NCBI RefSeq assembly: GCF_009498735.1 | Contig: NZ_ML762425.1 | Span: 150,011-214,010 of the forward strand | DNA: 64,000 nucleotides | From: Gracilibacillus oryzae | GTDB lineage: Bacteria > Bacillota > Bacilli > Bacillales > Amphibacillaceae | Direction: 5' to 3' | In this document: positions 37,231-63,179 of the stretch, in pieces | How the letters are laid out: every line of letters begins with the position of its first letter | Position numbering within the stretch: position 1 is the first letter of the stretch | Notes under the pieces: model-generated | What the model saw: the letters and a program-made list of their open reading frames with translations, nothing else | Databases searched by the model: none | What the model was told of the DNA's origin: nothing | Translations under genes and position numbers: made by a program

Positions 37231-37285
37231 ATTCGATGTGAGTATGAATTTTATGACGGTTTTTGTAAAAATGGAGGTAAAAAGT

Positions 37286-37678: not shown

Positions 37679-37680
37679 TT

Positions 37681-38139: not shown

Positions 38140-38165
38140 ATTTTTATGTATTGGAGGAACAGGAA

Positions 38166-38471: not shown

Positions 38472-38510
38472 AAATAAGGTGACAGAAGTAACTAGTTTTG
38501 GGGGCAAAAA

Positions 38511-40103: not shown

Positions 40104-40118
40104 AGGAGGTTAATGGAT

Positions 40119-43608: not shown

Positions 43609-43622
43609 GGATAGGTGAAGAA

Positions 43623-44207
43623 ATGAAAACCAATCCCAAAGAAAATAAGGAAAAAAAGCCTGGTATCCTGCAATGGTTGATTGTTATTATCGTCCCGCTT
43701 ATTTTTGCAGCAATTGTTACACTAATCATCTTAAATATAATGGGTGTGGATGTTGCAGGTTATTCAAAAGAAGCATTAAATAAAGTGCCGTTTCTTTCCG
43801 AAACAGTAATGACAGATGAAGAGGAAGTATTTGATCAGCAATTAGCAGAAAAAGATGAAACAATTTTGACAAGGGATGAAGAAATTAGTTCACTTCAAAC
43901 CCAATTGCAAGAAAAAGATCAGCAAATTGGCGACTTACAAGAAGAAATTGCTTCACTTTCCGAACAAATGGCAGAACAACAAAATGATATCGAGGCAACT
44001 GCTGTTGCTGAAGAATCCGATCAGGAAATCACGGCTTCTTTTGAAGAAATGAAACCAAAAACAGCAGCACCGATTATTGAAAATCTTGATAACCAATTAG
44101 CCATCTCTATTTTGAATCAACTTGATTCGAAAGTAAGAGGAGAAATTCTTGCAGAGATGGAACCAGAAACAGCGGCTAACTATACTGAAATGCTCGCAAA
44201 CCAATAA
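43623..44207 (+). CDS. ylxF: YlxF, MotE-like MgtE-N domain protein
   Basis: 194 residues. One membrane helix lies near residues 17-40, then a coiled coil, then a C-terminal MgtE-N-type repeat region with M-K-P-K-T-A-A-P-I-I-E and M-E-P-E-T-A-A-N-Y. Such proteins lie between fliJ and fliK in Bacilli and resemble the MotE chaperone family. The role in Bacilli is not settled. Confidence 0.85.
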   Translation: MKTNPKENKEKKPGILQWLIVIIVPLIFAAIVTLIILNIMGVDVAGYSKEALNKVPFLSETVMTDEEEVFDQQLAEKDETILTRDEEISSLQTQLQEKDQQIGDLQEEIASLSEQMAEQQNDIEATAVAEESDQEITASFEEMKPKTAAPIIENLDNQLAISILNQLDSKVRGEILAEMEPETAANYTEMLANQ

Positions 44208-44237
44208 GTTAAGCTACTTAGAAAGGGGGTGAAAAAG

Positions 44238-45674
44238 ATGTTCGTTGGAGCAAATTTTATAGCAAATATGACTGCAAATCAAACGTTACATCATGCAGGG
44301 AATACAACTTCATCTAATAATGATTTTCAACAATTGCTAGAAGGTGTAACAGAACATCAAGGCGATGGGACAATTCGCTCACTAGTTTCTAACCAAACAG
44401 AATCAAATTTGACAGCAGGCCTGGAGAGTATAATACCTAATGCATCAGAGGAGACAATGGAGTTGTTAAGGTCGCTAATTTCCGGAGAAGAATTATCGGA
44501 AGAATCGGTTCAGCAGCTTGCTGATTTATTAGGTACAGAGGAAGACGGAGCAAATGAGGAATTACTAGACATCATTCAGCAACTGTTAAATGTACCGGAC
44601 CAATCTGAATTTACAGAATCATTAAAGGGATTGGAGAAGTTATTGACTGATAAGGAATTAACCAGTGAGGAACTAATCGCACAGTTACAAGATCTTTTTA
44701 GCAATAAAGCAGCTGAAGAATCAGTCATTCCGATATTTAGTGGTATTTCCACAGCGAGACTCCAAGTCAATGCATTAAATCCAGAGATCTCAAAAGTTGA
44801 TCAACAAGAATTTGCTGCTCTTTGGCAAAAGGTTGACAGATTGATTAATAAGCTTGAGAACCTGCCATTGACTGCAAAAGACTATAAGCAGTTAACAAAT
44901 TTAATCCAGCAATGGTCCCAGTTAAGTCAGCAGGACAGTGCAACATTAAGTAGCTTTTTAACAAATATTGATGATTCTAAAACAAAAAATATCTGGACAA
45001 AGCTTGTTGAAAATTACCAAAACAGACTATCTGCAGAAAAGTTATACGGGCAAACTCAACAAGTGACAAAACAGGATATTGCGAAGTGGATTCAATCTGC
45101 ATTGGAAAATTACGAAACAATCGTAAAACCTGAAAATGGCCTAGCAAGGGCAGAATTACTTCAATTAAGCAATCAGTCTGCTCAACATAAGGTGCAACAA
45201 TTTGTTATTCATGTGCAACAAACAAACACAGAAGGACAAGTAGCTCAAAAACAATTACTGGAACAATTCCAACTAGCAATACAAAAAAGCAGCTTCTTAA
45301 AATCGCCAAACGGTACCAATCAGCTTATGCTGCGTTTACAACCGGGAAATTTAGGTGATGTAATGGTAAAGCTGACACAAGTAAATGGTGAAATGATAGT
45401 GAAAATGGTTGTTCAATCACAAGCAGCAAAAGATTTGTTAGAAGGAAACATAAATCAATTACGCCATATGTTTTCACCACAGCAGGTTGTGATAGAGAAG
45501 CAAGAGTCCATTCTGACACAAACAAGCCAGGACAGATTATGGAAAGATGAATCTGATGCATCGAATAACCAAGAGAAACAAAACAGTGATGATCAAGCTG
45601 GCCAACATTCGGACTCTGAACAAGAGAGAGAAACAAGTACTTTTCATGACTTATTAATGGATATGAAAGTGTAG
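44238..45674 (+). CDS. fliK: Flagellar hook-length control protein FliK
   Basis: 478 residues from ATG 44238 with AAAGGGGGTGA; a GTG at 44229 is rejected. The long, poorly conserved N-terminal part is followed by the Flg_hook domain around L-M-L-R-L-Q-P-G-N-L-G-D-V-M-V-K-L (about 358-374). The acidic tail ends in F-H-D-L-L-M-D-M-K-V. It acts as ruler and switches FlhB from hook to filament export. Confidence 0.95.
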   Translation: MFVGANFIANMTANQTLHHAGNTTSSNNDFQQLLEGVTEHQGDGTIRSLVSNQTESNLTAGLESIIPNASEETMELLRSLISGEELSEESVQQLADLLGTEEDGANEELLDIIQQLLNVPDQSEFTESLKGLEKLLTDKELTSEELIAQLQDLFSNKAAEESVIPIFSGISTARLQVNALNPEISKVDQQEFAALWQKVDRLINKLENLPLTAKDYKQLTNLIQQWSQLSQQDSATLSSFLTNIDDSKTKNIWTKLVENYQNRLSAEKLYGQTQQVTKQDIAKWIQSALENYETIVKPENGLARAELLQLSNQSAQHKVQQFVIHVQQTNTEGQVAQKQLLEQFQLAIQKSSFLKSPNGTNQLMLRLQPGNLGDVMVKLTQVNGEMIVKMVVQSQAAKDLLEGNINQLRHMFSPQQVVIEKQESILTQTSQDRLWKDESDASNNQEKQNSDDQAGQHSDSEQERETSTFHDLLMDMKV

Positions 45675-45683
45675 GTGAAAAAA

Positions 45684-46241
45684 ATGACATCAATAGATCC
45701 ATCTTATTATCTGAAAAATAACCAGTCAGCAGTGAAAGAACATAGTGAAACGTTGGGGAAAGATGATTTCTTAAGAGTTTTAATGACCCAATTGCAAAAT
45801 CAAGATCCTTTGAATCCAATGGATGATAAACAATTCATCTCACAAATGGCAACATTTTCTTCATTGGAACAAATGATGCAGATGAACCAGGCTATTACAA
45901 ATCTAGTTCACAATCAAACAGTCTCTCCTGTTATTCAGTATAGCCATTTAATTGGACAGCAAGTGAGCTATTACAAGATTGATGAGGAAACTGGTGTAAT
46001 TGCTGAACCAAAAGAAATTCTAACAAGTAAGGTATCAGCAATCTCCCAAACAGAAGGTTATGCTGTAATTGAATTAGAAGATGGTTCGAAAATATTTACA
46101 GATGAAATATTAAAAATTGAACAAAATGAAAATATTTCTGACGACAATAAACCAGAGACAGATGAATCAACTGAAGGAAATGCAACTCAAGATGAATCAG
46201 TAGCTGAGAACAATACTGAACCTGAAACACCGTCAGTATAA
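45684..46241 (+). CDS. flgD: Flagellar hook assembly scaffold FlgD
   Basis: 185 residues from ATG 45684; the GTG at 45675 overlaps the site TAGGTGA. The N-terminal L-G-K-D-D-F-L-R-V-L-M-T-Q-L-Q-N-Q-D-P-L region and F-I-S-Q-M-A-T-F-S-S-L-E-Q are diagnostic (quoted as separate conserved residues). An acidic Glu/Asn/Thr tail follows. It caps the growing hook. Confidence 0.96.
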   Translation: MTSIDPSYYLKNNQSAVKEHSETLGKDDFLRVLMTQLQNQDPLNPMDDKQFISQMATFSSLEQMMQMNQAITNLVHNQTVSPVIQYSHLIGQQVSYYKIDEETGVIAEPKEILTSKVSAISQTEGYAVIELEDGSKIFTDEILKIEQNENISDDNKPETDESTEGNATQDESVAENNTEPETPSV

Positions 46242-46252
46242 AGGGGGATTAT

Positions 46253-46615
46253 ATGAATAGTAAAATTCATGCACTCCACCATCCCGTTATTTTAAATAAC
46301 AGAAGCACCAAACATGTGAAAGCAACTAATCATTTTTCTGAACTCCTGCAACAGCAAAGTAAACTGACTATAAGCAAACATGCACAGCAACGAATGACCA
46401 CAAGGAATATTCAAGTTACGGATGCGAAGTGGTCAGAATTGGAAACTAAGATACTCGAAGCAAAGCAAAAAGGAATAAAAGAGTCGTTAGTGTTAATGGA
46501 TAATGCAGCCTTTATTGTGAATGTGAAGAACAATACAGTAGTCACAGCAATGGAACGTACAGAAACAAAAAGTAAAATATTCACAAATATCAATGGAACT
46601 ATTTTAATCGATTAA
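46253..46615 (+). CDS. Flagellar operon protein of the TIGR02530 type
   Basis: 120 residues. H-A-Q-Q-R-M-T-T-R-N-I, K-G-I-K-E-S-L-V-L-M-D-N-A-A-F-I-V-N-V and a final I-F-T-N-I-N-G-T-I fit the small flagellar operon protein family found between flgD and flgE in many Firmicutes. The biochemical role is unknown. No membrane segment. A GC-rich, structured gap separates it from flgE. Confidence 0.85.
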   Translation: MNSKIHALHHPVILNNRSTKHVKATNHFSELLQQQSKLTISKHAQQRMTTRNIQVTDAKWSELETKILEAKQKGIKESLVLMDNAAFIVNVKNNTVVTAMERTETKSKIFTNINGTILID

Positions 46616-46675
46616 GCTGGACCCGATAAGGGAGGCTTCCAAGCTGCCGACTGACTGACGCAGCTACATAAAAAG
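46616..46675 (+). other. GC-rich two-hairpin element between the TIGR02530 gene and flgE
   Basis: About 31 of 50 bases (46617-46666) are G or C, roughly 62%, in a clearly AT-rich genome. The sequence can fold as CCC-GATAA-GGG inside a TGGA / TCCA stem, followed by AGCTGC / GCAGCT around a 12-nt loop with the tandem GACTGACTGAC. It lies inside the operon upstream of the hook gene's ribosome-binding site (GAAGGGAAG). I recognise no known RNA family. It may be a regulatory or mRNA-stabilising element. Confidence 0.55.
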
Positions 46676-46692
46676 TGAAGGGAAGATTGTAA

Positions 46693-47643
46693 ATGTTAAG
46701 ATCAATGTATGCAGGTATTTCGGGGATGAAAAGTTTTCAAACAAAATTGGATGTTGTAGGGAATAATATTGCCAATGTAAATACAATAGGTTTCAAAAAA
46801 GGAAGAACAACATTTCAGGATATGATGAGTCAGCCTGTTAACGGCGCAAGTGCGCCAACGAATATCCGTGGTGGTATTAATCCATCTCAAGTAGGGACAG
46901 GTGTGCAACTCGGAACAATTGATAATATTCATACACAAGGGAACAGACAAACAACAAATAGGCCATTAGATCTTCAATTAGAAGGGGATGGAATGTTTGT
47001 TTTCGGATCTGGTTTTGACGCACTAGATACTGCAGCTGAAACACCGACAGTAACAACATTTACAACTGCGGGTATTCAAGAAAATCCAGATGTTTCATTA
47101 GCCTATTCTCGAGCAGGTAACCTGTATTTGGATGATGAAGGTTTCATAGTTAATGCAAATGGTCAATATTTAATGGGTTTTCAACCAACTGAAAATAATG
47201 ATGGCATAGATGGTGAGAATGCCGGCCCTATAAGCATTCCTGCTGGAGCTGAGAGTTTCAGCATTCAAGGTGACGGGGTTGTCAACTATATAGAGGGCGG
47301 CGTCACGAAAATAGCAGGTCAAATAACTTTGTCAAAATTTTCTAATCCTGGTGGTTTGCAAAAGATAGGTTCTAATATGTTCCAAACCTCACCGAATGAT
47401 GGACAGATATACTCAGATTTAGATAATAATAACCAGTATACTGCCGAAGCTGACTCAATTTTATTTGCACCTGAATCGGCTGGTACTGCCTCAATTGTTG
47501 CCGGTGCTTTAGAAATGTCCAACGTCGATCTTTCTGAAGAATTCACTGAAATGATCACTGCTCAGCGTGGTTTCCAGGCAAATACAAGAATTATTACAAC
47601 ATCTGATGAAATTTTACAAGAACTCGTTAACTTAAAACGATAA
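46693..47643 (+). CDS. flgE: Flagellar hook protein FlgE (annotated FlgG in older Bacillus maps)
   Basis: 316 residues. The N-terminal M-L-R-S-M-Y-A-G-I-S-G-M-K and G-N-N-I-A-N-V-N-T-I-G-F-K motifs and the C-terminal I-T-A-Q-R-G-F-Q-A-N-T-R-I-I-T region are typical of hook and distal-rod proteins. Its position between flgD and swrD identifies it as the hook protein. It is somewhat longer than the 264-residue B. subtilis protein, in the variable middle. Confidence 0.93.
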   Translation: MLRSMYAGISGMKSFQTKLDVVGNNIANVNTIGFKKGRTTFQDMMSQPVNGASAPTNIRGGINPSQVGTGVQLGTIDNIHTQGNRQTTNRPLDLQLEGDGMFVFGSGFDALDTAAETPTVTTFTTAGIQENPDVSLAYSRAGNLYLDDEGFIVNANGQYLMGFQPTENNDGIDGENAGPISIPAGAESFSIQGDGVVNYIEGGVTKIAGQITLSKFSNPGGLQKIGSNMFQTSPNDGQIYSDLDNNNQYTAEADSILFAPESAGTASIVAGALEMSNVDLSEEFTEMITAQRGFQANTRIITTSDEILQELVNLKR

Positions 47644-47650
47644 AAGGAGG

Positions 47651-47682
47651 AAGAGGGTTAGGATCACCTTCCTAGCCTTCTT
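47651..47682 (+). other. 12-bp hairpin between the Shine-Dalgarno and the start codon of swrD
   Basis: AAGAGGGTTAGG (47651-47662) pairs with CCTAGCCTTCTT (47671-47682) with two G-U pairs and an 8-nt loop. AGGAGG (47645-47650) directly precedes it, and the swrD ATG lies 9 nt after it. Without folding, the Shine-Dalgarno to start distance would be 41 nt; with folding it is 9. It could also be a partial terminator, since T residues follow. Confidence 0.7.
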
Positions 47683-47691
47683 TATTACAAG

Positions 47692-47913
47692 ATGATTAAA
47701 TTAACGAAACTAAACAATCAGAAGATAACTCTTAATGCCATGTTTATTGAAAGAATTGAGTCATTTCCAGATACGACGATTACATTAACCAATCAGAAGA
47801 AGTTATTTGTTAAAGAATCCGAACAGGAAGTCAGTCAAATAGCAACACAGTTTTATCAATCAATTGGATTGATGCCATTTCTAAGAGAAACAGGTGATCA
47901 GAATGAATCCTAA
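47692..47913 (+). CDS. swrD: SwrD (YlzI), FlbD family flagellar power protein
   Basis: 73 residues. [16 protein letters not shown]-x-F-I-E-R-I-E and P-D-T-T-I-T-L match FlbD/SwrD. In B. subtilis SwrD is needed for full flagellar power and swarming. There is no Shine-Dalgarno in the 30 nt upstream; the nearest is across a hairpin. No other in-frame start exists before an upstream stop at 47659. It overlaps fliL. Confidence 0.93.
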
Positions 47914-48319
47914 ATTGTTAAGAATTTTAGTAATATCCTTAGTTGTGATTATTATTGGTGGTGGAACAACATTATATTTCCTAATAAACTCAGAAGTGAA
48001 AGCCGATGAAGAGTTAACTATTGATGAAATGGTCAAATACTCCTACACAACGGAGGAAATGAAAACAGATTTAAAGGATGGAAGTTTTGTTCTTATACAA
48101 TTTCAGTTTATTACAGATGGAAAAAAGTCAGTAGAAGAAATTGCAAAGCGTGAATTTCAAGTGAAAAATGAGTTTATTAAGGAATCCATGGAGTTGACAG
48201 AAGCTGATTTTCGCGAGAACTTACCCGAAATAGAAAAGAATATTAAAGATGTGATGAATCAGAAAATGACAGAAGGAAAAATTGTCGAAGTACTTATTAT
48301 TAATAAAGTAATTCAGTAA
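47903..48319 (+). CDS. fliL: Flagellar basal body-associated protein FliL
   Basis: 138 residues from ATG 47903 with AGGTGAT; a GTG at 47894 is rejected. A membrane helix at about residues 6-26, then the periplasmic-type FliL domain with S-F-V-L-I-Q-F-Q-F. FliL stabilises stators and rotor contacts. Start lies inside the end of swrD. Confidence 0.95.
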
Positions 48320-48346
48320 GAATTTCTCCTGAATGGAGGTGAGGAT

Positions 48347-49348
48347 ATGCCAGATGAAGTTCTTTCCCAAAGTGAAATAGATGCTCTATTATCAGCATTA
48401 TCATCAGGTGAAATGGATGCCAATCAATTAAAAGAAGAAGAAAAAGACAAAAAAGTCAAAGTCTATGACTTTAAGCGTGCATTAAGATTCTCGAAAGATC
48501 AGATTCGAAGTATTTCCAGAATCCACGATAATTTTGCCCGGTTATTATCAACTTACTTTTCAGCACAATTACGTACATATGTTGATATTGATGTTGCATC
48601 AGTTGATCAAATACCATATGAGGAATTCATTCGTTCTATTCCAACGATGACTATTCTGAATGTATATAGTGTAGCTCCACTTGATGGAAGAATTATCTTT
48701 GAGTTTAACCCAAATATCGCATATGCCATGCTTGATCGTATTCTTGGTGGAAAAGGAAATAGTGTGAACAAAATCGACACACTGACTGAGATTGAAACAA
48801 CCCTGATGTCCCAGTTGTTTGAGAAGGCACTTGATAATTTACAAGAAGCATGGGGGACAGTTGCAGAGATTGATCCAATTTTAGAAGATTTCGAAGTAAA
48901 TCCGCAATTCCTTCAACTGGTATCACCAAATGAGACCGTAGTTGTTGTTTCATTAAATACGACAATTGGAGAGAGCAGCGGCATGATTAATATTTGTATA
49001 CCGCATGTTGTATTAGAACCGATTATTCCAAAGTTATCTGTCCACTATTGGATGCAAAATGAAAATCCGAAAGAAAGAAAACCAGAAGAATATGAATCAA
49101 TTTCCAGAAATATTAAAAAAGCACCAATGAATCTGTCCGTTGTTTTAGGAAAAAGTTCTATTACAGTGGAAGAACTGTTATTCCTTGATAAGGAAGATAC
49201 TATTCTATTAGACCAGGCAATAGAAGATCCACTTTTATTAGAAGTAGATCAAGTACCGAAATTCTTTGTGCAGCCAGGAAAGAAGAAAAGCAAAATAGCT
49301 GTACAAGTTTTAAATGAAATTAAGGGAGGGGATTATGATGATGAATGA
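48347..49348 (+). CDS. fliM: Flagellar motor switch protein FliM
   Basis: 333 residues. The N-terminal L-S-Q-S-E-I-D-A-L-L-S-A-L is the CheY-P binding motif. The middle domain is of the CheC/FliM type, and the C-terminal SpoA domain has N-L-S-V-V-L-G-K-S-S-I-T-V-E-E. It links CheY-P signal to rotation direction. Strong GGAGGTGAGG site. The end overlaps fliY. Confidence 0.98.
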   Translation: MPDEVLSQSEIDALLSALSSGEMDANQLKEEEKDKKVKVYDFKRALRFSKDQIRSISRIHDNFARLLSTYFSAQLRTYVDIDVASVDQIPYEEFIRSIPTMTILNVYSVAPLDGRIIFEFNPNIAYAMLDRILGGKGNSVNKIDTLTEIETTLMSQLFEKALDNLQEAWGTVAEIDPILEDFEVNPQFLQLVSPNETVVVVSLNTTIGESSGMINICIPHVVLEPIIPKLSVHYWMQNENPKERKPEEYESISRNIKKAPMNLSVVLGKSSITVEELLFLDKEDTILLDQAIEDPLLLEVDQVPKFFVQPGKKKSKIAVQVLNEIKGGDYDDE

Positions 49349-50519
49349 TGGAATGTTGTCACAAGAAGAAATTGATGCACTATTAGGCGGCAATGATAAT
49401 ACAGCTGGTGATGATAACAATTCTGACAGCACTTCTCTTTCCGCAGACCAATACCTTTCTTCATTAGAAGAAGATGCATTAGGCGAGATCGGGAATATTT
49501 CGTTCGGAAGTTCGGCAACAACATTATCAACCCTGTTAAATCAAAAAGTAGAAATCACAACACCGACTATTTCTGTAATTGATAAAGGATTATTAGAAAA
49601 TGAGTTTCCTGTTCCATATGTAGGAGTAGAAGTACAATATACTGAAGGCTTTACTGGAGCGAATTTATTCATATTAGAGTCAAAGGATGCTGCTGTAATT
49701 GCTGATTTAATGCTGGGTGGCAGCGGTGATCCCGATAATACAGATTTATCTGATATCCATTTGAGTGCAGTGCAGGAAGCGATGAACCAGATGATGGGGA
49801 CGTCTGCGACTAGTATGTCGACAATCTTTAATAAGAGAGTAGATATATCACCACCATCGATATCGATAATGGATGTTACGGAAGAGGAAGCAAATGAAAA
49901 ATTGGAGGCAAATGACAATGTATTAATTAAAGTGTCTTTCCAATTAAAAATAGGAACATTAATTGACTCAAAAATTATGCAATTATTGCCTGTTCCCTTC
50001 GCGAAGGAACTAGTAAATAATCTGTTAAACTCATCAGTTGAAGAAGAAGAAGCAATGCTTGACCAATCAATTGAGGATACAACAATTCAGGAAGACTATC
50101 ATGAAACGTCGCAGCCAGCAGTAGAGCAAATTCAGCAGCCAGAAAGCCATCAGCCAAGAGAACCGCGTCAATTAGGTCAGCAAACTGCCAGCAATACGGA
50201 AGTGCATGCAGCATCTTTCACTGATTTTGAGGAAATACCATTACAAAAAGAAGAAAAGCGAAATTTAGATCTGTTAATGGATATCCCATTACAGGTGACC
50301 GTGGAATTAGGCAGAACTAAGCGTACGGTGAAAGATATCCTGGAATTAACCTCTGGCTCTATTGTTGAATTAGATAAACTTGCCGGAGAACCTGTAGACA
50401 TTTTAGTTAATCAGAAATTAGTTGCCAAAGGGGAAGTTGTCGTTATAGATGAAAACTTTGGTGTACGTGTAACTGATATTGTAAGTAGAGAAATGAGATT
50501 AAAACAACTAAACAAATAG
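49338..50519 (+). CDS. fliY: Flagellar motor switch phosphatase FliY
   Basis: About 393 residues; ATG 49335, 49338 and 49341 are all possible after AAGGGAGGGG. The N-terminal L-S-Q-E-E-I-D-A-L-L-G-G can bind CheY-P. CheC-like phosphatase motifs are in G-E-I-G-N-I-S-F-G-S-S and A-V-Q-E-A-M-N-Q-M-M-G. The C-terminal FliN/SpoA domain has T-V-E-L-G-R-T-K-R-T-V-K-D-I-L. It combines CheY-P dephosphorylation with the FliN role in the C ring, a Bacillus-type arrangement. Confidence 0.97.
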   Translation: MMNDGMLSQEEIDALLGGNDNTAGDDNNSDSTSLSADQYLSSLEEDALGEIGNISFGSSATTLSTLLNQKVEITTPTISVIDKGLLENEFPVPYVGVEVQYTEGFTGANLFILESKDAAVIADLMLGGSGDPDNTDLSDIHLSAVQEAMNQMMGTSATSMSTIFNKRVDISPPSISIMDVTEEEANEKLEANDNVLIKVSFQLKIGTLIDSKIMQLLPVPFAKELVNNLLNSSVEEEEAMLDQSIEDTTIQEDYHETSQPAVEQIQQPESHQPREPRQLGQQTASNTEVHAASFTDFEEIPLQKEEKRNLDLLMDIPLQVTVELGRTKRTVKDILELTSGSIVELDKLAGEPVDILVNQKLVAKGEVVVIDENFGVRVTDIVSREMRLKQLNK

Positions 50520-50538
50520 TAAGAGAGGAATGAATTTT

Positions 50539-50901
50539 ATGTCAAAACGTGTATTAATTGTAGATGATGCAGCATTTATGAGAATGATGATTAAAGATAT
50601 ATTAACAAAGAATGGGTACGAAGTAGTTGGTGAAGCACAAGATGGAGCGGAAGCTGTTGAGAAATATAAAGAATTATCACCAGATTTGGTTACAATGGAT
50701 ATTACAATGCCAGAAAAAGATGGTATCGCAGCATTGAAGGATATTAAAGCATTAAATAATAATGCCAACATTATTATGTGTTCAGCTATGGGACAACAGG
50801 CGATGGTAATTGATGCAATTCAAGCAGGTGCAAGAGATTTTATCGTTAAGCCATTCCAGGCGGATCGTGTAATAGAGGCTATTTCCAAAGTAATAGGATA
50901 A
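50539..50901 (+). CDS. cheY: Chemotaxis response regulator CheY
   Basis: 120 residues from ATG 50539, with AGAGAGGAA upstream; ATG 50530 is too close to the site. A single receiver domain with D9-D10, phospho-acceptor D54 in T-M-D-I-T-M-P and the K in F-I-V-K-P-F. CheY-P binds FliM/FliY; in B. subtilis it promotes counterclockwise rotation (smooth swimming). Confidence 0.98.
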   Translation: MSKRVLIVDDAAFMRMMIKDILTKNGYEVVGEAQDGAEAVEKYKELSPDLVTMDITMPEKDGIAALKDIKALNNNANIIMCSAMGQQAMVIDAIQAGARDFIVKPFQADRVIEAISKVIG

Positions 50902-50905
50902 TAAA

Positions 50906-51574
50906 ATGAAAATTTCTAGACACGTAATTGGCACCATAGCGGTATTTTTATTCTTCATTATATTCTGTAATCAGCCATTATTAGCTTCTCAATCTGTCGA
51001 AGAATACTTTAATAATGGGAAAAATGAAGAAGCAGAAAAAACAGAAGAAACAGAAGCAGTCGAGGAAGAGCCGGTCACAGAAAGTGGAGAACAAGCCATA
51101 TCTTCCATTCAGTCACCAAACTTATTAGGTACTCTATTTCAATTAATTGTGGCACTAGTTGTGGTTGTTGGGTTAATCTATTTTATTGCCAATTTTGTAA
51201 AAAAACGAAACAGATACTTAGGCAGAAATCAAGTAGTGAAAAGCTATGGAGGGATCACACTTGGCACGAACAGATCCCTCCAGATTGTTCGCATTGGGGA
51301 ACGGTATTTTGCTGTAGGATTAGCAGAAAACATTGAATTATTGTTAGAGATAACAGATAATGAAACGATTGATCAGATCAAACAATCGGATGAATACCAA
51401 ACACAGCCAATAGACTTTTTTAAAGCGAAAATAAAGAAGAGAGACAATGACGATAAAACAGAAACAAAAAAAGAATTTGGGCATTTATTTAACAAGGAGC
51501 TGCAAGAAATGAAAGAGGGACGAAAGAAAATGCTGCAAAAGATGAAGGAAATGGAGAAAGATCATGATCATTAA
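50906..51574 (+). CDS. fliO: Flagellar biosynthetic protein FliO (FliZ)
   Basis: 222 residues. An N-terminal signal-like hydrophobic stretch (about residues 8-28), an acidic Glu-rich segment, a membrane helix at about residues 72-95 and a FliO domain with G-G-I-T-L-G-T-N-R-S-L-Q-I-V-R-I. The tail is Lys-rich. It helps assemble the FliP ring. Its end overlaps the start of fliP by 11 nt. Confidence 0.93.
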   Translation: MKISRHVIGTIAVFLFFIIFCNQPLLASQSVEEYFNNGKNEEAEKTEETEAVEEEPVTESGEQAISSIQSPNLLGTLFQLIVALVVVVGLIYFIANFVKKRNRYLGRNQVVKSYGGITLGTNRSLQIVRIGERYFAVGLAENIELLLEITDNETIDQIKQSDEYQTQPIDFFKAKIKKRDNDDKTETKKEFGHLFNKELQEMKEGRKKMLQKMKEMEKDHDH

Positions 51575-52204
51575 TTTAATTGATGTTTTTTCCGGTACAG
51601 ATCCAGCTAATCTTTCAACCTCTGTCAGACTAATATTATTGCTGACAATATTATCACCAGAATTATCATTGTTTTATCGTTTGTCCGAACTTCTCTTGCA
51701 ACACAGCAAATGCCGCCAAATCAAGTATTAATTGGCTTAGCATTATTTATGACATTTTTTATTATGGCACCAACTTTTCAAGAGGTAAATGAACAAGCAT
51801 TACAGCCATTATTCAATGAAGAAATTACGTTAGAAGAAGCGTATGATAGTGCCAGCTTGCCAATTAAAGAGTTTATGGCAAAACACACCAGACAGAAAGA
51901 TCTAGCATTATTTATGAATTTTGCTTCTATTGAAGAGCCGGAAACTATTGAAGACATTCCATTAACAACTTTAGTGCCGGCATATGCGATCAGCGAATTA
52001 AAAACTGCTTTTCAAATGGGCTTTATGATTTTTGTCCCTTTCCTTGTAATTGATATGGCGGTAGCGAGTGTATTAATGTCAATGGGGATGATGATGTTAC
52101 CACCAGTTATGATATCTTTGCCTTTCAAAATATTATTGTTTGTCTTAGTTGATGGCTGGTATTTAATTACACATTCCTTATTGGATGGTTTCTTACCGTT
52201 ATGA
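51564..52204 (+). pseudogene. fliP: Flagellar export gate protein FliP, disrupted by an apparent 37-nt internal deletion
   Basis: From ATG 51564 the frame encodes the normal FliP N-terminus, ending S-V-R-L-I-L-L-L-T-I-L-S at 51656. Then the frame is lost: the original frame reaches a stop at 51729-51731 after 55 codons. The rest of FliP resumes in another frame at 51656-51658 with T-R-I-I-I-V-L-S-F-V-R-T-S-L-A-T and is normal to 52204. Compared with B. subtilis FliP, about 12 residues (the L-A-P-G-I-L-I-L-M-T-S-F region of the first membrane helix) plus one base are missing, consistent with a 37-nt loss. FliP forms the export gate with FliQ and FliR. As read, it is non-functional. An assembly error is possible, but it is not a homopolymer slip. 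Confidence 0.9.
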
Positions 52205-52230: not shown

Positions 52231-52500
52231 TTGAGTGGTGAATTTGTCGTATCATTAGCAGAACAAGGTATCTATACCATCCTAATGGTTACTGGTCCGA
52301 TACTTATACTGGCACTTGTTGTCGGTCTTCTTGTCAGCATTTTTCAGGCAACAACGCAAATTCAGGAGCAAACACTGGCATTTATTCCAAAGATAGTTGC
52401 CGTATTATTTGGTATCATCATCTTTGGACCATGGATGCTTTCATTAATGGTCGAGTTTGCGGCAAATCTATTTCAAAATATTAATCAGTTTGTAGGCTAA
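52231..52500 (+). CDS. fliQ: Flagellar export gate protein FliQ
   Basis: 89 residues with a TTG start after AGAGGGG; an ATG at 52224 is out of frame and runs into a stop. Two membrane helices (about residues 14-40 and 50-75). L-V-S-I-F-Q-A-T-T-Q-I-Q-E-Q-T-L is the conserved loop region. Intact, unlike fliP upstream. Confidence 0.96.
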   Translation: MSGEFVVSLAEQGIYTILMVTGPILILALVVGLLVSIFQATTQIQEQTLAFIPKIVAVLFGIIIFGPWMLSLMVEFAANLFQNINQFVG

Positions 52501-52503
52501 ATT

Positions 52504-53274
52504 ATGGTGGAATTAATAAATATTAATCTGTTTCCTGCATTTGTCCTTATCTTAGTAAGAGTTTTAGCTTTTTTCGTCACGATTCCTATTTTTTCTTACC
52601 GGACGATTCCAAATCAGCTTAAGATTGGTATAGGCTTTTTTTTGGCATGGATTACGCTCTATACCTTGCCAATTCCAGAAGTATCATTCGATGGTATGTT
52701 TATTTTACTTTTACTTAAAGAGGCAATTATTGGATTATTGTTAGGTTTAATTGCATATATCATTTTGGCTGCTATTCAAATAGCAGGTGGTTTCATTGAT
52801 TTCCAAATGGGTTTTGCGATAGCAAATGTTGTGGACCCGCAGACTGGAGCACAAAGCCCGCTTACCGGGCAATACTTTTATGTTATAGCTATTATTTTTT
52901 TATTGATGGTAGACGGTCATCATCTTTTAATCAATGGGTTATTTTACAGTTTTGAAATTATTCCACTGGATAGTCTTATTTCATTAAATAACATTGATTT
53001 TGTGTTACGAACTTTCAGCCAAATGTTTGTTATTGCCTTCCAACTGTCCATACCAATTGTAGGATGTCTATTTTTAGTTGATGTGGCACTTGGGATTATG
53101 GCAAGGACGGTTCCACAGTTAAATGTGTTTGTTGTAGGTTTACCATTAAAGATATTGGTTTCTTTCGTTGTATTATTTATGTTTGTTCCATTTTATATTG
53201 CTATTGTCCAGAAGTTATTTTCGTTTGCATTAGAAGCGATGCAATCTCTTATTCAAATTTTAGGCGGTGCCTGA
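52504..53274 (+). CDS. fliR: Flagellar export gate protein FliR
   Basis: 256 residues, about six membrane helices. The loop F-Q-M-G-F-A-I-A-N-V-V-D-P and the P-Q-L-N-V-F-V-V-G-L-P-L-K motif are typical. It completes the FliPQR gate with FlhB. It starts 4 nt after fliQ. Confidence 0.96.
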   Translation: MVELININLFPAFVLILVRVLAFFVTIPIFSYRTIPNQLKIGIGFFLAWITLYTLPIPEVSFDGMFILLLLKEAIIGLLLGLIAYIILAAIQIAGGFIDFQMGFAIANVVDPQTGAQSPLTGQYFYVIAIIFLLMVDGHHLLINGLFYSFEIIPLDSLISLNNIDFVLRTFSQMFVIAFQLSIPIVGCLFLVDVALGIMARTVPQLNVFVVGLPLKILVSFVVLFMFVPFYIAIVQKLFSFALEAMQSLIQILGGA

Positions 53275-53276
53275 TC

Positions 53277-54359
53277 ATGTTTTTAAAATTAGATTTACAA
53301 TATTTTGCTGGTGAGAAAACGGAAAAAGCAACACCTAAAAAAAGGCAGGATGCACGTAAAAAGGGTCAAGTTGCCAAAAGCCAGGATGTCAATACGGCAA
53401 TATTACTCTTTTTGGTTTTTATTATTTTATTAGTAATTGGACATTCATTAGGTAATACAATGACAGGGATGTATCGTAAATCTTTTACAGAATACATTCA
53501 TTTGGCTGTAACGGAAGAGCAGATTTTCGAAGTTTTTCTAGATTTTACTATTCAGATTGCTATTGCAATAGCGCCAATTATGTTAATCGCTATTGTGGCG
53601 GGAATTGCTTCTAATTTCCTGCAAATAGGCTTTCTGTTTACAACAGAACCATTAAAGATGAAATTAAACAAGATTGATCCTATTCAGGGAGCGAAGCGGA
53701 TCTTCTCCGCTCGGGCGCTTGTGGAATTAGTCAAATCATTGCTTAAAATCGTTGTTGTTGGGGTGATAACATTTTCGATTATTTGGATGAATAAGGACGA
53801 AATGTTAATGCTCTATGACAAAGATGTAACAGGAGCTTTAGCATTTTTCGGTTCTATGACAATTCAAATGGGAATTGCTTCTGCAATTGCATTATTAATT
53901 ATATCGGTTATTGATTATGCATACCAGCGATATGATTTTGAAAAACAAAACAGAATGTCTAAAAACGATATTAAGGATGAGCATAAGAATATTGAAGGGG
54001 ATCCACTTATTAAATCAAAAATAAAAGAAAGACAACGTCAAATGGCAATGCAGCGAATGATGAGCCAAGTACCAGAGGCAGATGTCATTATAACGAATCC
54101 AACTCACTATGCCATTGCGCTTAAATATGATGAAAATAAGGCAGGTGCCCCTTATGTTGTTGCAAAAGGTGTAGATTTTGTTGCAGTGAAAATAAAGGAG
54201 ATAGCTAAGCATCATAACGTAATGATGGTGGAAAATCGACCTTTAGCAAGAGCATTATACGATCAAACAGAAATCGGTGAGATAATTGGTGAAGAATTCT
54301 TCCAGGCTGTTGCCGAAATATTAGCTTATGTTTATCGTGTACAAAAAAAGATTAAATAG
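53277..54359 (+). CDS. flhB: Flagellar export switch protein FlhB
   Basis: 360 residues. The N-terminal G-E-K-T-E-K-A-T-P-K-K-R motif, four membrane helices, and the autocleavage motif N-P-T-H in I-I-T-N-P-T-H-Y-A-I-A-L-K-Y-D-E (about residue 275). FliK triggers its switch from rod/hook to filament substrates. The start follows fliR with a 2-nt gap. Confidence 0.98.
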   Translation: MFLKLDLQYFAGEKTEKATPKKRQDARKKGQVAKSQDVNTAILLFLVFIILLVIGHSLGNTMTGMYRKSFTEYIHLAVTEEQIFEVFLDFTIQIAIAIAPIMLIAIVAGIASNFLQIGFLFTTEPLKMKLNKIDPIQGAKRIFSARALVELVKSLLKIVVVGVITFSIIWMNKDEMLMLYDKDVTGALAFFGSMTIQMGIASAIALLIISVIDYAYQRYDFEKQNRMSKNDIKDEHKNIEGDPLIKSKIKERQRQMAMQRMMSQVPEADVIITNPTHYAIALKYDENKAGAPYVVAKGVDFVAVKIKEIAKHHNVMMVENRPLARALYDQTEIGEIIGEEFFQAVAEILAYVYRVQKKIK

Positions 54360-54390
54360 TGTTGAAGCAAGTTAAAGGAGTTGTACGTGA

Positions 54391-56424
54391 ATGAAAGCTA
54401 GAGATTTTTCAGTTTTATTCGGTGTTATTTTAATTATCGTTATGTTAGTTATCCCATTACCAGGGTGGTTGTTAAGTTTTCTTATCTTAATCAACATTTC
54501 TCTAGCATTAATCGTTATACTGGTTTCAATGAATTCAACGGATGCCTTGCAATTCTCGGTTTTTCCTTCATTGTTATTACTATTAACCTTATTTCGATTA
54601 GGGTTAAATGTTTCTACAACAAGATCGATTTTATCGGAAGCTGATGCAGGTGGAGTTGTTGAAACATTCGGTACGTTTGTAACCGGAAATAGTCCACTAG
54701 TTGGATTTGTTGTTTTCGTTATTCTTATTATTATCCAATTTCTTGTTATTACCAAAGGTAGTGAGCGTGTATCAGAGGTTGCTGCACGTTTTACTTTAGA
54801 TGCTATGCCAGGGAAACAAATGAGTATTGATGCAGATTTAAATGCAGGAATGATAAATGAACAACAGGCAAAGGAACGTAGGGAAAAAATTGAAAATGAA
54901 GCAGACTTTTACGGGGCGATGGATGGAGCTAGTAAATTTGTAAAAGGTGATGCCATTGCTGGAATTATCATTGTCCTTATCAATATTATTTTCGGTTTAA
55001 TTATTGGTATGACACAACTTGGGTTACCTTTTAATGAAGCGATAGATACATATATGCGCTTGACTGTTGGGGATGGACTTGTAAGTCAGATTCCGGCATT
55101 GTTAATCTCAACAGCAACAGGTATTGTTGTAACAAGGGTTGCTTCTGAAGGAAATTTAAGCTCGGATATTACAAAACAGCTGCTTCGTTTTCCTGCACTC
55201 CTCTATATCGCAGCAGGGACGATATTTTTATTAGGCCTTACACCGATTAACTTTTTTCTTACAAGTTTCATTGCATTATTACTAGCAGGAGGTGCTTTTA
55301 TGCTCTCCCGTCAAGCGAAAGTGGATACAATGCCTACAGAGTCTGAAGTGGATGAATCAGAATCTGAAGAAATGAAAGCACCTGAAAATGTTGTGGGCCT
55401 TATTAATATGGATCCGATCGAGTTTGAATTCGGCTATGGCTTAATTCCGCTTGCTGATTCAAACCAGGGAGGAGACTTATTAGACAGAATTGTAATGATT
55501 AGAAGACAGTTAGCTATTGAGTTAGGACTTGTTATTCCTGTTGTTCGTATTCGTGATAATATTCAGTTGAATCCTAATGAATATAGACTGAAAATTAAAG
55601 GGAATGAAGTAGCCAAGGGTGAGTTGCTGTTAGATCATTTTCTGGCAATGAGTCCAGGCATAGAAGATGATGAATTAGAAGGTATTGACACAACAGAACC
55701 TGCGTTTGGGTTGCCGGCAAAATGGATTACTGACGAAACGAAGGATGATGCGGAATTGTCTGGATATACGGTTGTTGATCCGCCGTCAGTCGTATCCACA
55801 CATATAACAGAAGTGATAAAACGATATGCACATCAATTATTAGGAAGACAGGAAACACAACAATTAATTGATCATCTGAAAGAAAATTATCCAATCTTAG
55901 TCGAGGAAGTGACACCAGAACCATTATCGATTGGTGATGTACAAAAAGTACTCGCTAAATTATTAAGAGAAAATGTATCTGTAAAAAACTTACCGGTGAT
56001 TTTTGAAACGCTGGCAGATTTTGGCAAGATGACCACGGATACTGATTTACTTACAGAGTATGTAAGGCAATCGTTATCAGCACAAATAACCAAGGATATT
56101 ATTCAAAACAGAGATAAACTTAAAGTGATTACAATCTCTGGTGAAGTAGAGAAACTAATTGCTGAACATATTCAGCAAACAGAGCATGGCAGTTATTTAG
56201 CGATGGATCCTGATTCACAGCAGCGAGTGATTCAATCTGTTGCAGAAAATGTCGAAATTATGTCTCTGCAAGAAGAGATACCTATCCTGCTTTGCTCACC
56301 AACAATTAGAATGTATTTAAAACAATTGTTAGATCGATTCTTTCCACACGTTGTTGTTCTTTCATACAATGAGATTGAACCAACAATCGAAATACAGAGC
56401 CTTGGAGTTGTTAAGGTAGCATGA
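54391..56424 (+). CDS. flhA: Flagellar export protein FlhA
   Basis: 677 residues, the same length as in B. subtilis. Eight predicted membrane helices in the N-terminal half, including L-F-R-L-G-L-N-V-S-T-T-R and the FHIPEP region A-A-R-F-T-L-D-A-M-P-G-K-Q. The C-terminal cytoplasmic ring domain docks export substrates and chaperones. The end overlaps flhF by 4 nt. Confidence 0.98.
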   Translation: MKARDFSVLFGVILIIVMLVIPLPGWLLSFLILINISLALIVILVSMNSTDALQFSVFPSLLLLLTLFRLGLNVSTTRSILSEADAGGVVETFGTFVTGNSPLVGFVVFVILIIIQFLVITKGSERVSEVAARFTLDAMPGKQMSIDADLNAGMINEQQAKERREKIENEADFYGAMDGASKFVKGDAIAGIIIVLINIIFGLIIGMTQLGLPFNEAIDTYMRLTVGDGLVSQIPALLISTATGIVVTRVASEGNLSSDITKQLLRFPALLYIAAGTIFLLGLTPINFFLTSFIALLLAGGAFMLSRQAKVDTMPTESEVDESESEEMKAPENVVGLINMDPIEFEFGYGLIPLADSNQGGDLLDRIVMIRRQLAIELGLVIPVVRIRDNIQLNPNEYRLKIKGNEVAKGELLLDHFLAMSPGIEDDELEGIDTTEPAFGLPAKWITDETKDDAELSGYTVVDPPSVVSTHITEVIKRYAHQLLGRQETQQLIDHLKENYPILVEEVTPEPLSIGDVQKVLAKLLRENVSVKNLPVIFETLADFGKMTTDTDLLTEYVRQSLSAQITKDIIQNRDKLKVITISGEVEKLIAEHIQQTEHGSYLAMDPDSQQRVIQSVAENVEIMSLQEEIPILLCSPTIRMYLKQLLDRFFPHVVVLSYNEIEPTIEIQSLGVVKVA

Positions 56425-57521
56425 AAGTAAAAAAGATAAAGGGTACAACAATGCCGGAAGTGATGCAAATCGTCAGACGAGAATTGGGACAAGATGCTGT
56501 TATTTTAAATTCTAAAGAGATCTATGAAGGAGGCTTTTTAGGACTTTTTAAAAAAAAGAAAATTGAAGTACTGGCTGCAATAGATCAACAGCGTACGACT
56601 GTGTCACAGAAACACTCGGTCCCAGCAAAGCCTCTCGCTAAGACAGAGGAGAGTCGTCATAATAATGATGCTGTTCTAAAAGAATTAAAGGAAATGAAAC
56701 GCTGGATGCAAAAAAACACAGGTAATGAATCAGAACTGCCCTACCCGTATCAGCTTATGCTGGATCATTTACTTGATCAGGAAGTAAAGCCAGATGTAGC
56801 AAAGGAATTTATCGGAAATATTCAAAAAAGAAAATCTGCGGACACAGAAATGAATGTCGATAAATTAAAAGTAGAGTTAGCTTTTGAAATGAAACACAGG
56901 CTCGCAAACAAAGGGCAATTTGGCAATAACTTATTCGACAAGCAAATTGTACAGCTTGTCGGACCAACTGGTGTAGGAAAGACAACCACAATAGCTAAAT
57001 TAGCTGCACATTGTGTATTAAATGAACAACAGCGTGTTGCACTTATTACAACTGACACGTATCGGATTGCAGCTATTGAGCAGTTAAAAACCTATTCCAA
57101 AATTCTGGATATACCAATTGAAGTTGCTTACAGTTTAGATGATTATAATCAAGCCAGAGAGAAGTTTAAAGAATATGATGTAATTTTAGTTGATACAGCA
57201 GGAAGAAACTTCAGGGATGAAAAATATGTTAAAGAGTTAAGCAAAGTGATTGATCTTCATAAAGAAGTAGATACTTATCTCGTGTTGTCACTAACATCCA
57301 GAACGAGAGATATGGAAGATATATACCAACAATTTGAGACAGTGCCATTGAAACAGCTCATTTTCACAAAGAAAGATGAGACAGCCGTTTACGGCTCTAT
57401 CCTTAATATGTGTTTGGATCATAACATCGGAATTGCTTTTATTACAAATGGCCAAGACGTTCCAGATGATATTGAAGTTGCCTCAATTGACAACATTGCA
57501 AAATTAGTAGTTGGTGATTAG
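56421..57521 (+). CDS. flhF: Flagellar SRP-like GTPase FlhF
   Basis: 366 residues. The basic N-domain is followed by an SRP-family G domain with [28 protein letters not shown] and T-K-K-D-E. It is a third paralogue of Ffh/FtsY, controlling flagellar placement. It is followed at once by flhG, its regulator. Confidence 0.97.
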   Translation: MKVKKIKGTTMPEVMQIVRRELGQDAVILNSKEIYEGGFLGLFKKKKIEVLAAIDQQRTTVSQKHSVPAKPLAKTEESRHNNDAVLKELKEMKRWMQKNTGNESELPYPYQLMLDHLLDQEVKPDVAKEFIGNIQKRKSADTEMNVDKLKVELAFEMKHRLANKGQFGNNLFDKQIVQLVGPTGVGKTTTIAKLAAHCVLNEQQRVALITTDTYRIAAIEQLKTYSKILDIPIEVAYSLDDYNQAREKFKEYDVILVDTAGRNFRDEKYVKELSKVIDLHKEVDTYLVLSLTSRTRDMEDIYQQFETVPLKQLIFTKKDETAVYGSILNMCLDHNIGIAFITNGQDVPDDIEVASIDNIAKLVVGD

Positions 57522-58376
57522 ATGAAAGATCAAGCGGCAAAATTGCGTTCTAAGATTAAAAGTGTTCATGGCAAATACCATGCCAAAACAATTGCAGTTG
57601 TTAGTGGCAAAGGTGGTGTAGGTAAATCAAATATTGCACTGAACTTTGGCTTAAGTCTGGCTGCAAAAAGGAAGAAAGTACTACTTTTCGATCTTGATGT
57701 TGGAATGGGAAATATTGATATTTTACTAGGCAAAACTTCTAATAGTTCTATAATCCAAATGTTCGAGAAAAATTTGTCAATTTATGATATTATTGAATCA
57801 GGTCCTAATGACATTTCGTATATAGCTGGTGGTACTGCTGGTCATGAAATTTTCTTTCTGGATCAAACGAGATTGGAATACTTTATTGAGCAATTAGAAC
57901 TACTTTTAAGAGATTATGATTATATTATATTTGATATGGGTGCTGGTATAACAAGGGAAAACATTCATTTTATCCTGGCAGCAGATGAGTCTATTGTCAT
58001 TACAACGCCAGAACCAACATCATTAACGGATGCTTATTCAATGGTAAAACATATTTTGAGCCACCAAGAAACATCCATTCACTTAATCATTAATCGGGCA
58101 ATCAAACAAAAACAGGGAGAGGAAACGATCACTCGCTTTAGTGAAGTTGTCAGTCGCTTTTTACATTACAATATTCATCCATTAGGTATAGTGCCGGATG
58201 ACAGAGCAGTAGTTGATGCTGTAATTAATCAGAAGCCTTTCCTGATAGATAATCCTAAGTCAAAAGCTTCTGAAGCTATAGTGAAAATTTCTAATAAATT
58301 TTTAGGGGAGATACCTGGGAAGAAAATGGGGTCTGGCTTTTTAAATAAATTAATGAATTTTTTCGCAGAGGAGTAA
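57522..58376 (+). CDS. flhG: Flagellar number/placement ATPase FlhG (YlxH)
   Basis: 284 residues. A MinD/ParA-type ATPase with the deviant Walker A S-G-K-G-G-V-G-K-S-N, D-L-D-V-G-M-G-N-I-D and I-F-D-M-G-A-G. An N-terminal basic stretch may stimulate FlhF GTPase activity. The C-terminus may form an amphipathic membrane-binding helix (L-N-K-L-M-N-F-F-A). It starts next to the flhF stop. Confidence 0.97.
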   Translation: MKDQAAKLRSKIKSVHGKYHAKTIAVVSGKGGVGKSNIALNFGLSLAAKRKKVLLFDLDVGMGNIDILLGKTSNSSIIQMFEKNLSIYDIIESGPNDISYIAGGTAGHEIFFLDQTRLEYFIEQLELLLRDYDYIIFDMGAGITRENIHFILAADESIVITTPEPTSLTDAYSMVKHILSHQETSIHLIINRAIKQKQGEETITRFSEVVSRFLHYNIHPLGIVPDDRAVVDAVINQKPFLIDNPKSKASEAIVKISNKFLGEIPGKKMGSGFLNKLMNFFAEE

Positions 58377-58381
58377 CAAAC

Positions 58382-59470
58382 ATGGGAAAACATACTGTTC
58401 TAGTAGTTGATGATTCAGCATTTATGCGGAAAATGGTCTCAGATATTATTAATCAATCAGATAAGCTTGAAGTAATTAGTACAGCAAGAAATGGTGAAGA
58501 TGCACTGAAGAAAATTGATCAACTGAAACCTGACATAATTACCTTAGATGTAGAAATGCCAGTAATGGATGGGATTGCGACACTAAAGGAGATAATGGCG
58601 CAATCTCCTTTACCTGTTGTCATGTTATCAAGTTTAACCAAAACTGGCGCAGATAAAACGATTGAAGCAATGGCCCTGGGAGCAGTCGACTTTATTGCAA
58701 AACCTTCAGGATCTATTTCGCTGAATATAAAAGAAATCGAAAAAGAAATTATTGGCAAAGTGGAACAGGCGGTGCAATCGAATGTGAGGCACCATTTATC
58801 TGCTATCAGTAATCAAACAAACACAGTGAAAGAAGAGCAGACAGTTTTTCCTTCACCTGGTAGATTTACAACCACATTTGCTCAAAATGCGATTAACATG
58901 AAGTCTATTGTTGCCATTGGTTCATCTACTGGCGGTCCGCGAGCTTTACAGGAAGTTATTACAAATTTACCTGAAACATTTCAGGCACCTGTTGTTATTG
59001 TTCAGCATATGCCTAAAGGCTTTACTAAATCCTTAGCAGACCGATTAAATAAACTTTCTAAGCTTGAGGTAAAAGAAGTAGAAGATGGTGACATTATCGA
59101 ACAGGGAAAAGTATACATAGCACAGGGTGGAAAGCAGTTCGAAGTGGAACAGAGAGGAAATAAATTATCAGCAAAAGTAAAGGCAGATAAGCCTGTCAAT
59201 GGTCATCAGCCAGCTGTTGATGTGCTTTTTTCATCTGTTGCTAAATTATCAAACTATCAGCCCGTTTCTGTTGTATTAACCGGAATGGGCAGTGATGGCG
59301 CGCGAGGAATAGAATCACTAAAACGCAGTAAACCGAGAACGGTTATTATATCTCAGTCTAAACAGACTTGTGTGGTTTATGGCATGCCCCAAGCTGCTGA
59401 GAAAACCAGTTTGGTAGATTATGTTTTAGATATTCAGGATATAAGTGGAATGCTCCAAAAAAAAATCTGA
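58382..59470 (+). CDS. cheB: Chemotaxis protein-glutamate methylesterase CheB
   Basis: 362 residues. The N-terminal receiver has phospho-acceptor D56 in T-L-D-V-E-M-P-V-M-D-G. The methylesterase domain has the catalytic Ser in I-G-S-S-T-G-G-P-R, His in V-Q-H-M-P-K-G and the G-M-G-S-D-G-A-R-G motif. It removes methyl groups from receptors during adaptation. No cheR is in this window. Confidence 0.98.
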   Translation: MGKHTVLVVDDSAFMRKMVSDIINQSDKLEVISTARNGEDALKKIDQLKPDIITLDVEMPVMDGIATLKEIMAQSPLPVVMLSSLTKTGADKTIEAMALGAVDFIAKPSGSISLNIKEIEKEIIGKVEQAVQSNVRHHLSAISNQTNTVKEEQTVFPSPGRFTTTFAQNAINMKSIVAIGSSTGGPRALQEVITNLPETFQAPVVIVQHMPKGFTKSLADRLNKLSKLEVKEVEDGDIIEQGKVYIAQGGKQFEVEQRGNKLSAKVKADKPVNGHQPAVDVLFSSVAKLSNYQPVSVVLTGMGSDGARGIESLKRSKPRTVIISQSKQTCVVYGMPQAAEKTSLVDYVLDIQDISGMLQKKI

Positions 59471-59488
59471 TAAGTAGAGGTGAGTAGT

Positions 59489-61537
59489 ATGGAGAACAGT
59501 GAATACTTAGAAGTGTTTATTGAAGAAAGCAAGGAAAATATTCAGTCATTAAATGACCAGCTTTTAATTCTGGAAAATGAGCCAGCAAATATGGATACGG
59601 TTGGGGAAATCTTTCGGTCAGCACATACGTTAAAAGGAATGGCTGCGACGATGGGATTTCAAGATTTGGCAGACCTCACACATAAGATGGAGAATGTATT
59701 AGATGCAGTCCGAAATAGTAAACTCTCCATAAACTCTGATATAATCGATGTCATTTTTCAAGCAGTAGATCAATTAGAGGGCATGGTTGTTGATATTGCA
59801 AGTGGTGGAGATGGTTCTTCAGATGTAAAAGAGTTGGTACATAAGCTACAAGCAATTGAAAATAATGAACAAATAGATACCATGACAGTTTCCAATAACA
59901 AAATTGAAGAAAAATCGAATCAACAAAGTCAGCAAAAGTCTAACCATAATTATTTTGCTGATTTGGATGAATTTGAAATGGCTATACTGAATCAATCAAA
60001 TGAAAAAGGGTTTATTAATTATGAATTAATCATACGACTGAATGAAAACTGTCTGTTAAAAGCTGCAAGGGTTTATATGGTCTTTGAAGTGTTAGAACAG
60101 GTAGGAGAAGTAATTAAATCAGCACCAACAGTTCAGGAATTAGAAGAAGAAAATTTTGACTTAGACTTTAATGTTCTTTTAGTGACAAAGCTTAATGATG
60201 AGGAAGTAAAACAAAGAATCTTAAAAATCTCTGAAATTGAAGAAGTAATAATCTCACCTTTTGACATAAATAAAAGAGAAGAAAATGACAATGAAGAGAA
60301 TTTGCCTGAAACTGCAGAGAAACTGGCTGACAGTACAAGCCAGCAGGAAACAAAAAAGACAAGCAACACAAATAATGCGAAAAGTGTTGCTAGTAAAACA
60401 ATTCGAGTGAACATTGAACGATTAGACGGTTTAATGAATTTATTTGAAGAACTGGTCATTGACCGGGGCAGACTAGAGCAGATCTCAGCTAATCTAAAAC
60501 ATGCAGAATTGCAAGAAACAGTAGAAAGAATGACAAGAATCTCCGGAGACTTGCAAAGTATTATATTGAATATGCGGATGGTACCTGTTGAACAAGTATT
60601 CAATCGTTTTCCAAGAATGGTTCGGCAATTGTCCAAAGATCTAGGTAAAAAAGTAAATCTTGAGATTATCGGTGCAGAAACAGAACTTGACCGTACAGTG
60701 ATTGATGAAATTGGTGATCCTTTAGTTCATTTAATACGAAATTCATTAGATCACGGCATTGAAACACCTGATGTTCGTCTGCAACGTGGTAAATCGGAAG
60801 AAGGGGACCTTGTTCTTAAAGCATATCATAGCGGGAATCATGTATTTATTGAAATTTCCGATAATGGTGCAGGAATCAATCGACAGAAAGTAGTTGATAA
60901 GGCAATCTCAAACCAGGTGATTACGTCAGAAGAAGCAAGCACCTTAACGGACGAGCAAGTATTTCAATTAATTATGTCAAGCGGCTTTTCCACAGCTGAT
61001 AAAATATCTGATGTCTCAGGCCGTGGTGTTGGTCTGGATGTTGTTAAGAACACAATTGAGTCTTTAGGCGGCACCATAATGATTGAATCTAAAGAAGGAG
61101 AAGGTTCATTGTTCTCCATTCAATTACCACTAACTTTATCCATCATTTCTGTTCTTTTAGTAGAGGTGGAAAAAGAAAAATATGCTGTCCCATTATCTTC
61201 TATTATTGAAACAGCAATTATTCATAAAAGTGAGATACTGAATGCACATAATAAGAAAGTTATTGACTTCAGAGGTAAGGTTGTCCCCCTAATTTCATTA
61301 AAAGAAGTATTCGAAGTACCTCAGGCAGAGGAAGAAGATGATTATTTTTCTGTTGTGATTATTAGAAAAGGCGATAAGATGGCAGGATTAATTGTTAATA
61401 AATTTGTAGGTCAACAGGAAATCGTCCTCAAATCATTAGGAGACTATTTAGGCGATGTATTTGGAATTTCTGGTGCAACCATACTGGGTGATGGTCAAGT
61501 AGCATTGATTCTTGATACAAACACATTAATTAATTAG
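59489..61537 (+). CDS. cheA: Chemotaxis sensor histidine kinase CheA
   Basis: 682 residues from ATG 59489 with AGAGGTGAG; a GTG at 59480 overlaps that site. P1 carries His46 in R-S-A-H-T-L-K-G-M-A. P2 (about 160-270), the P3 dimer helices with R-M-V-P-V-E-Q-V-F, the P4 kinase domain with H-L-I-R-N-S-L-D-H-G-I-E and G-R-G-V-G-L-D-V-V, and the P5 CheW-like domain are all present. It phosphorylates CheY and CheB. Confidence 0.98.
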   Translation: MENSEYLEVFIEESKENIQSLNDQLLILENEPANMDTVGEIFRSAHTLKGMAATMGFQDLADLTHKMENVLDAVRNSKLSINSDIIDVIFQAVDQLEGMVVDIASGGDGSSDVKELVHKLQAIENNEQIDTMTVSNNKIEEKSNQQSQQKSNHNYFADLDEFEMAILNQSNEKGFINYELIIRLNENCLLKAARVYMVFEVLEQVGEVIKSAPTVQELEEENFDLDFNVLLVTKLNDEEVKQRILKISEIEEVIISPFDINKREENDNEENLPETAEKLADSTSQQETKKTSNTNNAKSVASKTIRVNIERLDGLMNLFEELVIDRGRLEQISANLKHAELQETVERMTRISGDLQSIILNMRMVPVEQVFNRFPRMVRQLSKDLGKKVNLEIIGAETELDRTVIDEIGDPLVHLIRNSLDHGIETPDVRLQRGKSEEGDLVLKAYHSGNHVFIEISDNGAGINRQKVVDKAISNQVITSEEASTLTDEQVFQLIMSSGFSTADKISDVSGRGVGLDVVKNTIESLGGTIMIESKEGEGSLFSIQLPLTLSIISVLLVEVEKEKYAVPLSSIIETAIIHKSEILNAHNKKVIDFRGKVVPLISLKEVFEVPQAEEEDDYFSVVIIRKGDKMAGLIVNKFVGQQEIVLKSLGDYLGDVFGISGATILGDGQVALILDTNTLIN

Positions 61538-61548
61538 GAGGTCCAAAT

Positions 61549-63146: not shown

Positions 63147-63179
63147 TGACATGATATTATGATGGAAAGAGGTGATTCG

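Follow-up and report, generated by a model that had tools for sequence, protein, structure and literature searches.

A 37-nt deletion disrupts the only fliP gene in the sequenced genome of Gracilibacillus oryzae within an otherwise in-frame flagellar operon

FliP is needed for the flagellar type III export gate. Mature Salmonella FliP is described as comprising four membrane helices (PMC5542437). Disruptions of the export-gate genes are described for Campylobacter jejuni, where a motility-loss study lists frame-disrupting mutations of fliP, which arose in laboratory evolution, and of flhA, mutations of flhB and a spontaneous fliR deletion present in about 70% of the reads of a laboratory culture (PMC7677240). 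The locus described here resembles these laboratory-culture export-gate mutants in that fliP is disrupted by a frame-breaking change as well. However, the C. jejuni fliP mutations include changes in long homopolymer tracts, and the early ones are described as mainly easily revertible (PMC7677240), whereas the present lesion is the loss of 37 nt at a non-repeat position. Furthermore, C. jejuni belongs to a different phylum. The lesion of G. oryzae is most likely an ordinary mutation of the motility-loss type; it points to neither new biology nor a new mechanism.

The stretch of DNA analysed (the window, 64,000 nucleotides) lies within contig 2 (505,040 bases) of a 4.63-Mb draft genome of 53 contigs, which is rated 100% complete and 1.02% contaminated. 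It was compared with 16 congeners (G001–G016, one genome per species), the closest of which in this set is G010 with 81% DNA identity over positions 77–1401 of a 1401-base query. Of the fliP loci with a name among the best 80, the nearest belongs to Aquibacillus sediminis, with a DNA identity of about 72%. The congener FliP also matches nine solved sequences, which confirms the family only. Gene names within the operon, including fliO, fliQ and fliR, are putative assignments from gene order and position, unless a family search is cited. The features relevant to the following are:

37238–51574, plus strand: flagellar genes flgB to fliO, preceding fliP in the operon, with intact frames by comparison with G010
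50906–51574, plus strand: fliO, intact (222 aa versus 219 aa in G010), overlapping the fliP start
51564–51731, plus strand: 5' piece of the broken fliP, 31 normal codons followed by 24 out-of-frame codons and a stop
51656–51657, plus strand: deletion junction according to the codon reading, 37 nt of the congener fliP absent
51656–52204, plus strand: 3' piece of fliP, conserved apart from the change of frame (Pfam PF00813)
51710–52204, plus strand: 164 aa frame, the sole one listed for the 3' piece that opens with ATG, GTG or TTG
52231–53274, plus strand: fliQ and fliR, intact (89/89 and 256/256 aa versus G010)
52231–63935, plus strand: flagellar and chemotaxis genes fliQ to sigD, following fliP in the operon, with intact frames by comparison with G010

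The start codon of fliP, an ATG at 51564, is located within the 3' end of fliO. Codons 1–31 encode normal FliP, after which the N-terminal frame runs into a TAA at 51729–51731, giving a product of 55 residues, and the remaining FliP sequence is read in another frame from 51656 until a stop is reached at 52204. From start to stop the gene spans 641 nt as compared to 678 nt (225 codons) in G010 and is thus 37 nt shorter. In a pairwise DNA alignment this difference appears as a single gap of 37 columns placed after 51646, about ten bases to the left of the position suggested by the codons; the codon placement is preferred, since it leaves residues 28–31 as in the congener. Read in this way, the missing 37 nt correspond to twelve codons plus one base. 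Both flanks are plainly FliP, so that chance is no explanation. The 3' piece (51656–52201) matches the Pfam FliP profile PF00813 with an E value of 4.6e-76 over profile positions 19–191 of 191, and its 164 residues from 51710 onwards share 96.3% amino-acid identity with G010; no Pfam match was obtained for the 55-residue 5' product. The broken gene is hence a FliP-family member by its profile match and also by its position between fliO and fliQ, with order and lengths as in G010. A FliP search of the genome returned the broken copy as the only match and no second fliP; a backup gene elsewhere was accordingly rejected.

An earlier note, made from the letters of the window, had described this lesion as a 37-nt deletion with a change of frame, with normal FliP up to codon 31, the stop at 51729–51731 and the remainder from 51656, and had placed the loss of about 12 residues plus one base in the first membrane segment; frame reading, alignment with G010 and hydropathy agree with it on each of these points. 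It had also maintained that ribosomal frameshifting could not restore a normal protein. This holds as well: programmed frameshifting or bypass was rejected, as the DNA itself lacks these codons rather than just carrying them out of frame. Overall, its observation is confirmed and its interpretation supported as largely right.

The consequences for the protein were assessed by hydropathy, using means over 19-residue windows and a threshold of 1.6. The first 55 residues of the congener FliP exhibit two strong peaks of 2.46 and 2.18, whereas the 55-residue product of the broken gene contains no 19-residue window of at least 1.6. The first hydrophobic stretch is missing from this product and from the 164-residue product alike. 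No single frame passes through the first membrane segment, which is interrupted by the stop at 51729–51731 and the frame change, and, with helices assigned by inference from hydropathy, the four membrane helices of a functional FliP are not provided.

A shortened FliP initiated at the ATG at 51710 might be thought to serve in the gate nonetheless, given its uninterrupted frame of 164 residues and the strong conservation of their sequence. This conservation is, however, accounted for by the recency of the loss discussed below. In addition, the 20 nt preceding this ATG contain no match of at least three bases to the ribosome-binding consensus, while such a match was found at all six other starts tested (fliP's own, with a long spacing of 14, as well as fliQ, fliR, flhB, flhA and fliM). 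The shortened protein would also lack the first hydrophobic segment, which is kept in frame in 109/109 fliP loci of other genomes. The internal start was therefore rejected, and a working gate subunit of this kind is extremely improbable. At the level of the nucleotide sequence, no normal FliP export-gate subunit could be made from the broken gene.

In order to place the lesion in its context, the region from flgB (37238) to sigD (63935) was compared with G010, considering plus-strand congener frames of at least 60 aa with a match; on the congener side this leaves no gap longer than about 160 bases between the two genes. A partner in the window was found for 32 G010 frames, i.e. fliP and 31 others, and these 31 agree along almost their entire length; the two exceptions, which show ordinary variation in size, are the fliK-like gene at 44229 (481 aa versus 532 aa in G010) and the hook/rod gene that lies at 46693 (316 aa versus 345 aa). 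Outside the operon, flagellin, flgL and flgK are open, as are the frames in which the fliD and motA matches lie (712 and 283 aa). The flagellin gene (L118, 6252–8777, minus strand of the genome's contig C1) is long, encoding 841 aa versus 554 aa in G010; Pfam recognises only the two end domains of flagellin, leaving the long middle part unmatched.

The age of the lesion was inferred from the state of the sequence beyond it. Over the 164 residues from 51710, not a single residue is unique to the source genome as compared to 14 of the 16 congeners (G001 was omitted for its truncated fliP, G006 for want of the locus); the same count yields two residues for G010 and five for G003. The dN/dS of the fliP remainder versus G010 is 0.009, the lowest of 22 computable genes, although dS exceeds 1 in 21 of these 22, the fliP remainder included, so that dN/dS is a rough guide. 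These values were derived by the NG86 method from 25 genes, a set without some operon genes such as fliH, fliJ, fliK and flgD (names by position), and dS was not computable for fliE, flhF and cheA. Within this set of 25 genes, conservation is lowest for fliO, with 65% amino-acid identity to G010, and its dN/dS of 0.17 is the highest of the 22. Since the remainder contains no unique residues and has the lowest dN/dS, i.e. shows no decay past the first lesion, the loss of fliP appears recent. The earlier note had likewise regarded any loss as recent on the grounds that all other flagellar and chemotaxis genes looked intact; the matching frames from flgB to sigD agree with this for the operon, and the undecayed remainder of fliP supports the recency.

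Had selection been absent for long, this remainder would look different, but the absence of decay fits an intact gene equally well. It would thus also be expected if the strain carried an intact fliP from which 37 nt had been lost in assembly or polishing, and the genome is a draft assembly of 53 contigs. Against such an artefact, 15 of the 16 congeners carry no direct repeat longer than 9 nt (spacings 20–79) within the homologous 180 nt, and a collapse of the assembly, which needs longer repeats, is therefore unlikely. Neither is there a strong local hairpin: a 121-nt segment around the junction, folded as DNA, is no more stable than its shuffled versions (z 0.23). The 31 other flgB–sigD frames that match G010 furthermore argue against a generally error-prone assembly of the operon, and a clean loss of 37 nt at a non-repeat position would, in our judgement, be an unusual error. 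Taken together, an artefact is improbable. Alternatively, the deletion might be the majority variant of a mixed culture retaining a minority of intact cells, for which the C. jejuni fliR deletion mentioned above, seen in about 70% of the reads, provides a precedent (PMC7677240). Nothing in the assembly favours such a mixture, and it is considered quite improbable. We thus hold, with good confidence, that the deletion is a real, recent and spontaneous 37-nt loss of function in the only fliP of the genome.

As to the origin of the deletion, two local mechanisms were considered and rejected, namely slippage between direct repeats, as the microhomology at the codon-based breakpoints amounts to 0–2 nt in 15/16 congeners, and a hairpin-driven event in view of the z value of 0.23. 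The repeat test refers to congener sequences, not to the strain's own ancestral sequence. Within the window, the junction is spanned by a 7-nt direct repeat with copies 12 nt apart (51650–51668), and an 8-nt direct repeat with copies 15 nt apart is located just before it. Both may be due to chance; the 7-nt repeat may alternatively be a vestige of the deletion event.

If the deletion is real, the following course of events can be proposed. Removal of part of the first membrane segment together with the shift of frame would make a normal FliP impossible, and without FliP the flagellar type III export gate would not form. Components of the rod, hook and filament as well as the anti-sigma factor FlgM would be retained inside the cell, the late flagellar genes would remain off, and the cell would bear no flagella. 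On the known role of FliP, the best reading of the outcome is a non-flagellate strain or majority clone. The loss probably arose in culture or in a niche where swimming is unprofitable. Two alternatives to an accident of culture seem unlikely, namely that the species lost swimming by natural adaptation or that both forms persist in it as a standing polymorphism; if it were so, the otherwise pristine operon would represent flagellar loss caught at its very first step. For the favoured reading of a spontaneous loss of function, the locus provides a clean example of an apparently very recent loss of motility with the remaining operon in frame. The annotation of the genome should mark its single fliP as disrupted, and any motility reported for the species needs to be compared with the sequenced stock.

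The alignment with fliP of relatives that the earlier note had proposed was carried out on 111 loci, two from the genome itself and 109 from other genomes. In all of the latter the stretch that is broken in the window is uninterrupted, and no fewer than 45 open codons precede the residue corresponding to 51710; one of these loci (L019, from G001) is cut short further downstream. At the level of the family, a FliP match is present in 150 of 159 genomes, the source genome counted, and a full-length, stop-free FliP (profile positions 1–190 or 1–191) in 145 of these 150. The five exceptions are the source genome, G001, G177 and the weak matches of G021 and G116. The last two cover 66 and 69 profile positions only, although their open frames measure 387 and 372 aa, and probably do not represent fliP, so that the gene is broken as sequenced in 3 of the 148 family genomes with a recognisable fliP. 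G177 and G001, both from the same family and the latter from the same genus, resemble the source genome in that a species-representative genome carries a broken fliP with a conserved remainder. Their frame changes (L143/L146 in G177, L142 in G001) are found at other points of the gene, namely later than the lesion in the window. G001 is rated 5% contaminated and contains other broken flagellar frames, so that an error is possible in the case of its fliP. Among these frames are a flagellin-like one containing a stop and another that is short and probably flgL-like (L129, L130); they reflect either flagellar decay or an assembly error.
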